Below are positions 1,695 to 64,000 of a DNA stretch of 64,000 nucleotides, one piece after another. A model generated the notes under the pieces. That model was given only the letters and a program-made list of their open reading frames with translations, ran no database searches and was not told where the DNA came from. The stretch's first letter is position 1. Each line of letters starts with the position of its first letter. Source of the stretch: an uncultured Paracoccaceae bacterium. Lineage in GTDB: Bacteria > Pseudomonadota > Alphaproteobacteria > Rhodobacterales > Rhodobacteraceae. The translations under genes and the position numbers were made by a program. The stretch covers positions 186,001 through 250,000 of the forward strand of contig CANMPK010000001.1 of NCBI GenBank assembly GCA_947499725.1. Reading direction: 5' to 3'.

Positions 1695-1741
1695 GCCAGA
1701 CCGCTGCGTTTCGCGGCGAAACCTGTGTGCTATTGGGACGA

Positions 1742-1800
1742 TGCCTTAACATTTAGGTAATGTAGCAATTCGCGCTTTTCAGGCGCTGAAATGTACAATT
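1742..1800 (+). repeat. Dispersed 59-bp repeat, copy A
   Basis: tgccttaacatttaggtaatgtagcaattcgcgcttttcaggcgctgaaatgtacaatt; ungapped hand alignment to copy C (63918-63976) gives 48/59 identities. Confidence 0.8.
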
Positions 1801-1918
1801 CCATATTTGGGCTTTTGCTTTGCATAATTGCTGAGGTGAATCCCGTTGGCGGGTGCTTTTGCAGCGAGTGTCGGCTCTGAGACCTACGTGACCGATGCTG
1901 CGATGTGTCAAAAGTCCG

Positions 1919-39384: not shown

Positions 39385-39537
39385 GAGGCGTTTTTCGCAG
39401 CCTTGCGACGTTTGTAGTGTTTCAGGCCCAGCACGATGTATTGGCAGCCTTAGGGCCATCGAATACGCCAATGCCCTGTGAGAAATTACCCGCATTGCAG
39501 TTGACGAAAATGCGCCTTTCAGCCAGAGATTGTGTGT
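39382..39537 (-). pseudogene. Possible decayed gene remnant (frameshifted 3' end)
   Basis: Minus strand reads TQSLAERRIFVNCNAGNFSQGIGVFDGPKAA in one frame, then [20 protein letters not shown] in a neighbouring frame after about position 39445. Confidence 0.4.
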
Positions 39538-39561
39538 TTTCTAAGTTTGCGTGAGGGTTTT

Positions 39562-41346
39562 ATGCCAACCTACCTTGAAGGTATAGCAATTCGGTTTTAC
39601 CGCGGTATTGGCGAAGAAACTCAGTATATCGCTCCTTTTTCGGAAATGAATTTCTTTGTCGGCGCGAACAATGCTGGCAAGTCTATTGTCCTGAATTTGC
39701 TGACAGATCATCTTTTGCAAAGCGGCAACAACATGTTGGCAGATCGGTCACTAGTTTATCGTGGAGGGAAGGAGGGTCAGTTCGAAAGCCTTCTAGCTCT
39801 AAGTGATAAGACAATAAGCGTTGTGATATTTGATGAACTGCAAAAGCGCGCCAAATCTTATCAGAAAATTAATTTTGGCAAGCCTCCTATAAATGCCGAG
39901 GAAATTGCAGGTTTGACGAGAGAAATTACCGATTGTCTTCTCTATCGGGGAGGGGTTTGGATCAAAGAGGAACGCAGATCTCGTAATATGGAGTTGAATT
40001 CTGCCGTCTATGATAACAGCTATGACTTTGGCTTGAGTATCGAGCGTTGGACAGACTTGACCAGTTTGTTTGGACTGCCCCGTCAAACTCATACTGCGCA
40101 TGCAGCAAGGCAGGTTTTGGGTCAAATTTTGCGTTTCCTAAAAACAGGCTTCCCGCAAAGGATGCTCATACCTGCAAAACGGCAGCTTTTGTCTGGCGAT
40201 GAAGCATTTGATGATCTTTCTGGTAAGGGGCTGATTCATCACCTTGCTGAGATACAAAATCCTGATTTCCATGAACGTGATCGAAAGAACGTTTTTGATC
40301 AGATTAATGCGTTTATCCAAGACGTCACCGGAAAGCCCGAGGCGCTTCTGGAAGTTCCGAGCCATCGTGAACATTTGATTGTGCATATGGACGGGAAAGT
40401 ACTGCCGCTTTCGTCGTTAGGTACGGGAATTCATGAAGTTATTTTGATTGCCGCATTCTGTACGATCCATCAGCATAAGATCATGTGCATCGAAGAACCT
40501 GAAATCCATTTACACCCTGTTTTGCAACGCAAACTCATTCGATATTTGCAAGAAAACACAGAAAATCAGTACTTCATCGCAACCCATTCTGCTGCTTTAA
40601 TTGATACAGATGGGGCGTCTGTCTTTCACGTTAGAAATGACGGCGTACAGACATATTTAGAAGCTGCAATCACCCAAGATCAGCAGCGAAAGATTTGTGA
40701 TGATTTGGGCTATCGCGCGTCTGATATTTTGCAAGCCAATTCTGTAGTCTGGGTCGAAGGACCATCAGATCGAATTTACCTGAAACATTGGTTAAAGGCT
40801 TTCGATAGCCGATTGGTTGAAGGCGTTCACTATACCATCATGTTTTATGGTGGTGGACTGATCAGCCACCTTTCAGCGGATGACAATTCGGTAGATGAAT
40901 TCATTAAATTGCGAAGCCTCAATCGTAATATTGCGATTTTGATAGATAGCGACAAAGACAACGCCAGCGCACAACTGAAGCCTGCTGCAAGTCGCCTTGA
41001 TGAAGAAATCTCTAAAGATGGCGGTATCGTTTGGATCACGGAAGGTCGAGAGGTTGAAAATTACGTTCCTTTTGATGATCTCCATGCCGCTTTGAAAGAG
41101 CAACACACAAGGGTCTACGGCGCTCCCCATCTGAAAGGGCAGTATGAGCTCGCATTTCATTTTAAACGAAAGTCTACAGAAGGGAGCGCTGAAGGCGTTT
41201 ACAAGGACGCAGACAAGGTAGGCGTAGCTAGCCGCATTTGTCAGCAAGGAAATCCGGTAGATTTTGGTGTGCTCGACTTGAACGATCGTGTGGTTGAATT
41301 GGGTCAGATGATTTTGCAGGCCAATGGGATGGAGCGCCCCGAATAG
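39562..41346 (+). CDS. OLD-family ATP-dependent nuclease (AAA ATPase + TOPRIM)
   Basis: Walker A VGANNAGKSIVLNLL, CIEEPEIHLHPVLQRKLIRYL, ATHSAALIDT; TOPRIM VVWVEGPSDRIYLKHWL, AILIDSDKDNA, EGREVENYVP. Confidence 0.88.
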   Translation: MPTYLEGIAIRFYRGIGEETQYIAPFSEMNFFVGANNAGKSIVLNLLTDHLLQSGNNMLADRSLVYRGGKEGQFESLLALSDKTISVVIFDELQKRAKSYQKINFGKPPINAEEIAGLTREITDCLLYRGGVWIKEERRSRNMELNSAVYDNSYDFGLSIERWTDLTSLFGLPRQTHTAHAARQVLGQILRFLKTGFPQRMLIPAKRQLLSGDEAFDDLSGKGLIHHLAEIQNPDFHERDRKNVFDQINAFIQDVTGKPEALLEVPSHREHLIVHMDGKVLPLSSLGTGIHEVILIAAFCTIHQHKIMCIEEPEIHLHPVLQRKLIRYLQENTENQYFIATHSAALIDTDGASVFHVRNDGVQTYLEAAITQDQQRKICDDLGYRASDILQANSVVWVEGPSDRIYLKHWLKAFDSRLVEGVHYTIMFYGGGLISHLSADDNSVDEFIKLRSLNRNIAILIDSDKDNASAQLKPAASRLDEEISKDGGIVWITEGREVENYVPFDDLHAALKEQHTRVYGAPHLKGQYELAFHFKRKSTEGSAEGVYKDADKVGVASRICQQGNPVDFGVLDLNDRVVELGQMILQANGMERPE

Positions 41347-41368
41347 GTGCTGACCCCCTCTGTTTTTC

Positions 41369-41427
41369 AATTGTACATTTCAGCCGCTGAAAGGGGCGAA
41401 TTGTCACCTTTCTTAGAAGTGAACGCA
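41369..41427 (-). repeat. Dispersed 59-bp repeat, copy B (inverted relative to A and C)
   Basis: Reverse complement tgcgttcacttctaagaaaggtgacaattcgcccctttcagcggctgaaatgtacaatt; 49/59 identities to copy C by hand. Confidence 0.8.
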
Positions 41428-41651
41428 GCGTACGGCACCTTGGCCAGCAGGGCTGAATTGGCGCTTTGATCGACCAAAAACGTGCCCAAAACACCACTTT
41501 TTGCCCTCAATCACCTAGGGGCTGCCACTATATATGGTATTATTCCTTCACAAGACGCAGAAATTTGCTAGAGTGACTGCATTAAAGGACTTCGAACCTC
41601 TTGTGGTGACTGCTCATCACAAGCAACCGAGGCAACACAGAGGATAAGATC

Positions 41652-47202: not shown

Positions 47203-47215
47203 GTGCAGCCTACTG

Positions 47216-47261
47216 TTCTGTCACAACGGCTTCCTGGCGTGGCAGAGAAACTTAATGGAGC
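47216..47261 (+). ncRNA. SAM/SAH riboswitch-like leader of metK
   Basis: ctgtCACAACGGCTTCCTGGCGTGgcag then TAATGGAGC; stem ctgtcac/gtggcag; matches the SAM/SAH riboswitch core as I recall it; overlaps the metK ribosome-binding site. Confidence 0.88.
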
Positions 47262-47266
47262 GCTTC

Positions 47267-63129: not shown

Positions 63130-63810
63130 TTATTTGAATTTGTCTATCAACTTTTGCATCGAAGACCGTGTGTCTTCAGATGGGACATCTTCCTTGGGCG
63201 TTTCGGCTGGCTTTGGCTTGGCTTTGCCCGTGGAAGAGCGGGGTGGGGCGACGCGTAGGGCGACTGCATTCATGAATTTCGCGCTGTCATCTTGCGCCAA
63301 ATGGGCTGCGCCGTCGCTGATACCGCGTTGCAAATCGTCCAGCCAGTCATGGTCTGATTTTGAAAAATCCCTTAAAACATAACCACTTACAGCATCTTTG
63401 TGACCGGGGTGACCGATGCCAAGGCGGACGCGATCATAGGCGGGGCTGATATGTTGGTGGATGGAGCGCAAACCGTTGTGGCCCGCGTGTCCGCCGCCGG
63501 ATTTGACGCGGCATTTTCCGGGGGCGAGGTCGAGCTCGTCGTGGAAGACAACCACATCTGTGCTGTCGAGCTTGTGAAAGCGCATGGCCTCGCCAACCGC
63601 TTGGCCAGAGAGGTTCATGAAGGTTTCTGGTTTTAGAAGAATGACTTTGGTGCTGCCAAATTTCCCCTCGGAGACAAGGCCTTGGAACTTTTTGCGCCAA
63701 GGGGAAAAGCCATGATCTTCCGCAATGCGGTCCAGAGCCATGAAGCCGATATTGTGGCGGTTGCCTGCGTATTTTGGGCCGGGGTTGCCGAGGCCGACGA
63801 AGAGTTTCAT
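63130..63810 (-). CDS. pth: Peptidyl-tRNA hydrolase
   Basis: [62 protein letters not shown]. Confidence 0.97.
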
Positions 63811-63917
63811 GGCGCCTTATCCGTATATTTGGTCGCTGTGGTTGATCTGAGTTTTACGCGGGCAGGGGCGGAAAAGCGAGGGGGATTTGGAAAGGGCGTG
63901 TCTAGGGCTACGGGCGC

Positions 63918-63976
63918 TGCGTTCATCTTTCGCAAAGGTGGCAATTCGCGCCTTTCAGGTGCTGAAATGTACAATT
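63918..63976 (+). repeat. Dispersed 59-bp repeat, copy C
   Basis: tgcgttcatctttcgcaaaggtggcaattcgcgcctttcaggtgctgaaatgtacaatt. Confidence 0.8.
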
Positions 63977-64000
63977 GGGGTTGTGGGGGAGGAGGCGAGA

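Follow-up and report, generated by a model that had tools for sequence, protein, structure and literature searches.

Evenly spaced 66-bp composite palindromic sites with species-specific dialects at shared addresses in Cognatishimia, candidate targets of a co-evolving binding protein

What are three copies of a short, partly palindromic sequence doing in the intergenic spaces of a single 64-kb stretch of a Cognatishimia genome? The window analyzed here, 64,000 nucleotides long, comes from an assembly of 3.15 Mb in 14 contigs (hereafter G000), and carries copy A at 1736–1801 (+), with the core TTTCAGGCGCTGAAATGTACAATT at 1777–1800, copy B at 41368–41433 (−), 22 bp past the stop codon of an OLD-like gene (39532–41346, +), and copy C at 63912–63977 (+), between pth (63130–63810, −) and rplY, which is the top-scoring copy of the whole genome. 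An earlier note had aligned the three copies without gaps over 59 bp, and both their positions and this alignment were borne out: its hand-counted identities (48/59 for A and C, 49/59 for B and C) proved exact upon recomputation, which gives 46/59 for A and B, and all three copies contain TTTCAG-NNN-CTGAAA with the centers gcg, cgg, and gtg. The 59-bp length captured the core region correctly but fell short of the full element, which spans ~66 bp, its first base being a conserved G that precedes the 59-bp start by six bases and its last lying one base past the 59-bp end. Similarly, the “broad palindrome” of the same description holds for the presence of symmetry, but is better expressed as two dyads (four half-sites), the left part being asymmetric. 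The 24-mer core TTTCAGNNGCTGAAATGTACAATT matches three times in the window and in none of 100 dinucleotide shuffles, and an Rfam search of the window left the repeat unmatched. The same window also holds a SAM/SAH riboswitch aptamer at 47215–47262 (+; RF01727, E 3e-9), which is unrelated to the repeat.

The three copies belong to a much larger family. Pattern search and BLASTN of G000 each recovered ~40 copies, while a reversed control pattern recovered none, and a profile (R1) built from 34 gap-free copies (set A3) identified 57 copies at E < 1e-5, one of them on an 83-kb contig (G000:C7) that bears a RepB-like gene. Two congeners, G002 and G005 (Cognatishimia sp. 1_MG-2023 B3R09), also proved to carry large families when searched with profile R1, and a second profile, R2, gave counts of ~56 and ~68 copies, respectively. 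The earlier note had known of only three copies and had named, as the outcome that would speak against a dispersed element, a genome with these three alone and relatives with none; searches of the genome and of its relatives returned the opposite on both counts.

Beyond these genomes, the distribution is narrow. The family was found in three of nine congeners (G000, G002, and G005), with no convincing match in the six remaining congeners examined, G003 among them, so that the system is not essential to the genus. An exact-pattern search of 60 relatives gave no match, the exact core pattern matched only G000 among GTDB genome contigs and viral contigs, the G005/G002 pattern matched the G005 genome alone in the GTDB and viral contigs, and no virus, and BLASTN against plasmid and phage records found nothing. 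Profile searches of 150 and then 397 genomes of the family returned this genus and one copy from another genus, G011 (C1:2769625–2769695, −; L225/L342; E 6e-11), which is full-length; a weak match in G376 lay within a coding region and was set aside as a chance hit. The G011 copy lies two genes downstream of efp, a gene that also flanks one G000 copy (L018) and probably one G002 copy (L160), which is suggestive, if not conclusive, of common descent of the efp-linked copies in G011 and G000. The 400 kb of G011 around this copy held no second one, and its neighbors included neither a transposase nor a noteworthy regulator.

With position 0 set at the first T of TTTCA, the G000 consensus reads G(-41)..CG(-37)......TTaA(-28)..TTT...AAnGTggCAATTCGcccc TTTCa[GC-rich spacer]CTGAAATGTACAATT(+23). 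On the right, the site has a dyad with arms CCCCTTTCA / TGAAATGTACAATT around the GC-rich spacer; on the left, a weaker dyad (TTAAnnTTTnnnAAATGTGGCAATT) follows a G..CG of the invariant type. The 34 copies agree without exception at fifteen columns, while adjoining columns are near random, and of the ~73 bits of information that the 66 positions carry, the arms account for 56 and the spacer for 3. Conserved positions recur approximately every helical turn and form the four half-sites of the two dyads, an arrangement that suggests recognition by a dimer of dimers. The left arm occurs in G000 as three subtypes, GCCCC, GCGCT, and GGTACA; the GGTAC form, kept by a minority of copies (L021, L022, L269, L271–L275, and L279), is near the palindromic arm of G002 and G005, and may be the ancestral form that gave rise to the GCCCC and GCGCT arms. 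We had considered that spacers might be necessarily unique, as in recombinase sites, but this idea was dropped since the spacer AGGGGC is found six times in G000. About nine G000 copies, copy A included, are extended by a second palindrome, GTTTCGCGGCGAAAC, ~80 bp upstream (1708–1722 in the window, unstranded), and ~9 of 10 genome matches to this palindrome lie ~80 bp upstream of a site copy. We note that this second palindromic repeat, also written GTTTCGCGGCGAAACC(GTTGCG), is seen in G000 both at window 1708–1722 and, for example, at C2:116514, C3:254895, and C5:44748, and that similar upstream sequence precedes some G002 copies (L147, L157, and L159).

The copies are nearly all intergenic and mostly lie just 3′ of housekeeping genes, 43 of 58 placed copies (the 57 and one weak copy) being no more than 100 bp from the 3′ end of a gene. 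Their exact position varies, in that they can overlap the stop codon, fall between stop codon and terminator, or follow directly after the terminator hairpin. Neighboring genes identified by Pfam include ruvB, a hisH-like gene, dtd, nusB, cysS, pdxJ, hemC, mlaC, radC, and hsp20, and those read from the sequence include mltG, lolD, efp, pth, groEL, and metG. The association with accessory genes (the mer module and the OLD gene) that had been drawn from copies A and B is an accident of the window; the neighbors genome-wide include genes such as ruvB, porphobilinogen deaminase, and nusB.

Along the chromosome, sites are placed on average ~50 kb apart and more evenly than random placement would give: the coefficient of variation of the gaps is 0.68 in G000, 0.65 in G002 (contig 1), and 0.51 in G005, compared to ~0.93–0.96 for random placement (p = 0.004, 0.006, and <0.0001, respectively, under a null that ignores intergenic space, the three genomes being related and the tests not independent). 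Gaps under 8–10 kb number 2, 0, and 1 in G000, G002, and G005, against expected values of 7.4, 4.6, and 11.4; the nearest copies in G000 are 7–8 kb apart. The one 1.7-kb pair in G005 was considered as a possible transposon and rejected, the enclosed gene being an ordinary metabolic gene. Site strands are mixed, with no replichore polarity, and in G002 the sites run on across the GC-skew switch, which lies at approximately 0.95 Mb (a noisy estimate, with skew sampled in 20 stretches). Near this switch, the probable terminus, lies a site at which both strands match the model (G002:C1:958512–958571), and an unusual partial G000 copy (C1:940571) likewise lies near a skew switch.

The comparison between species is what most constrains the interpretation of these sites. 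The consensus sequences of G005 (AAATGTGGAAATTCGTACGTTTCnnnnnnTGAAACGTACGATTCG) and G002 (TAATTGTACAATTTGTACGTTTCAnnnnnTGAAACGTACGATTCG) are both unlike that of G000, and the coding DNA of the species differs by ~20–25%. Among 41 congener copies, comprising the best-scoring third (20 from G002 and 21 from G005), 14/20 in G002 and 13–14/21 in G005, or ~28/41 together, have a flanking gene in common with a G000 copy, and the shared flanking genes are on the same side and the same strand in 48 of 50 cases. The stop-to-site distance often agrees to the nucleotide, being −16/−16/−16 in the three genomes at a lolD-like gene and −23/−23/−23 at a DUF1643 gene; it is −27/−27/−30 at mltG, where the site lies on the stop codon in all three; the sequence after mltG holds no site in the six other congeners or in other genera. 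Arm identity is nevertheless no higher between orthologous copies (0.74) than between copies from different genomes that are not orthologs (0.73), while within genomes it reaches 0.81, 0.93, and 0.92, G000 being less homogeneous than the other two. As the copies were found by profile, conserved arms are favored in these values, but the comparison of orthologs to non-orthologs is unaffected by that bias. The spacer (5–6 nt between the arms), in turn, shows an identity of ~0.42–0.51 in every comparison, is not homogenized within genomes, and has no ortholog signal, its GC-richness alone being kept, whereas linker positions retain such a signal (0.45 for orthologs vs 0.36). Taken together, uniform arms, a free spacer, and old positions argue for selection acting on a recognized site.

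We therefore favor, with a probability of roughly one in two, a reading in which each copy is a composite, double-stranded site for a sequence-specific protein, under selection, co-evolving with that protein, and used by the chromosome as a whole; of the options raised in the earlier note, a protein-binding site is the best supported. Such a protein would bind the ~66-bp site, probably as a dimer of dimers, reading the arms of the right dyad base by base with little regard for the sequence of the spacer, and would likely contact the G..CG ahead of the left dyad. Purifying selection imposed by the co-evolving protein would maintain the arms and give each species its own dialect, the arms of a genome changing together as the specificity of the protein shifted between species. 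Regular spacing, mixed strands, the lack of replichore polarity, the preference for convergent pairs and for promoter-free gaps, and the presence of sites on replicons with plasmid-type replication genes point to a role for the whole chromosome over one for neighboring genes, be it marking, protection, self-recognition, nucleoid occlusion, segregation, or folding; the recognizing protein is plausibly a chromosome-organizing one. A ParB-family search for the binding partner yielded no clade-specific candidate common to G000, G002, and G005. A mobile or REP-like element probably introduced the sites into an ancestral genome, to be retained later for their present use, although this is a guess.

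The alternative that survives best, although we consider it unlikely, is a MITE- or REP-like family that is still mobile, in which a transposase acting in trans targets terminators or stop codons and a recent burst has occurred in each species. Such a family would account for many intergenic copies near stop codons or terminators, for their palindromic anatomy, for the extension of about nine copies by a second palindrome, and for the confinement to one clade, and target immunity could space the copies; the sequence of a REP is, moreover, known to shift in step with its RAYT (PMC2817692). However, a new burst cannot account for sites at positions that are identical to the base, beside the same gene, in species that have diverged to this extent, and both gene conversion and a fresh wave of transposition are disfavored because in either case the spacer would be copied together with the arms, whereas the spacers vary freely. 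A search for RAYT (Y1_Tnp, PF01797) gave no match in G000, compared to matches in 5 of 14 control genomes, such that the label “REP-like” is apt for the anatomy of the element but not for a RAYT-driven mechanism. The further suggestion of a solo IS end finds no support, since a mobile copy would have a uniform spacer and the spacers here are heterogeneous; in addition, a Pfam scan of 40 flanking proteins found no transposase or integrase domain.

Less probable still, though not negligibly so, is that the sites serve a large transcription regulon as its operators, or act in roadblock or attenuation at gene ends. Dyad symmetry, the many conserved intergenic sites, and the location of some of these upstream of genes are what an operator would show. 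However, of 56 classifiable gene pairs around copies, 33 are co-directional, 16 convergent, and only ~7 divergent, where the intergenic spaces in 464 kb of G000 lead one to expect ~32, 9, and 15, respectively, so that convergent pairs are enriched and divergent ones depleted (p = 0.012–0.016). The neighboring genes have no pathway in common, and even spacing is not predicted by a regulon.

It is improbable that the sites specifically mark DNA as a cell's own, for uptake, keeping, or sparing. DNA uptake sequences, like these sites, have species dialects and often lie near terminators (PMC3630211), and several replicons carry sites, but one copy per ~50 kb stands against thousands per genome for uptake sequences, and a 66-bp motif that is almost never inside genes against one of ~12 bp. 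The least credible reading is that the sites act within mRNA 3′ ends as an RNA element or terminator. Although many copies lie between stop codon and terminator and a TTTCA/TGAAA hairpin is possible, the consensus fold is weak (−1.1 kcal/mol), arm pairing is 88.3% compared to 88.2% with shuffled partners, with no pair covariation, the three outer pairs are broken in 20–32 of 34 G000 copies, and several copies lie beyond the terminator.

Returning to dispersed sites read by a co-evolving protein, we put forward more tentatively the possibility that they constitute an undescribed system, in which a fast-evolving protein reads ~66-bp composite sites that recur at intervals of approximately 50 kb in the chromosome and other replicons alike. 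If all sites were rewritten together whenever the specificity shifted, the dialects of related species would become mutually unreadable while occupying the same addresses. Should one protein indeed read them, a chromosome-scale marking system would have arisen within a single genus of marine Rhodobacteraceae, and the three dialects, together with six relatives that lack the system, would form a natural experiment on the joint evolution of a DNA-binding protein with some sixty sites, giving a handle on what evenly spaced specific sites do for a bacterial chromosome. This reading predicts a single protein with ~57 ChIP peaks, the removal of which would cost the cell a chromosomal property.

Among known systems, REP/RAYT resembles the present case in having short intergenic palindromes close to the 3′ ends of genes, repeated tens to hundreds of times per genome, and in the shift of the REP sequence between species along with its cognate protein. 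It differs in that the consensus of the 66-bp sites, read directly, does not have the G(G/T)AG head (GTAG or GGAG by an imperfect palindrome), and in that the sites are evenly spaced rather than in BIME-type clusters, are ~66-bp composites with a free spacer, and keep their positions across species. DNA uptake sequences (DUS/USS) share with these sites a genome-wide motif with species dialects, often near terminators, but comprise hundreds to thousands of ~10–12-bp copies as opposed to ~57 long composite copies outside genes. MITEs are similarly non-coding, dispersed, and partly palindromic; here, however, no parent transposon was found among the 40 flanking proteins scanned, and the spacer between the arms is not shared among copies. 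We file the sites with dispersed chromosomal recognition sites, their membership in any named family being unproven. Noc is one of the chromosome-organizing or division proteins with dispersed binding sites (NBS). SlmA has ~50 sites (SBS) in E. coli (PMC3116907). The sites described here are longer than those of MatP (matS), SlmA, and Noc (66 bp compared to 12–14 bp), show no exclusion from or restriction to Ter in the G002 skew test, have a motif that changes fast among related species, and would be read by a protein that is still putative. What they share with these systems is the presence of tens of specific palindromic sites per chromosome, probably serving the chromosome and not the neighboring genes, and it is like the dispersed sites of SlmA, MatP, or Noc that, by analogy, they would most likely work.
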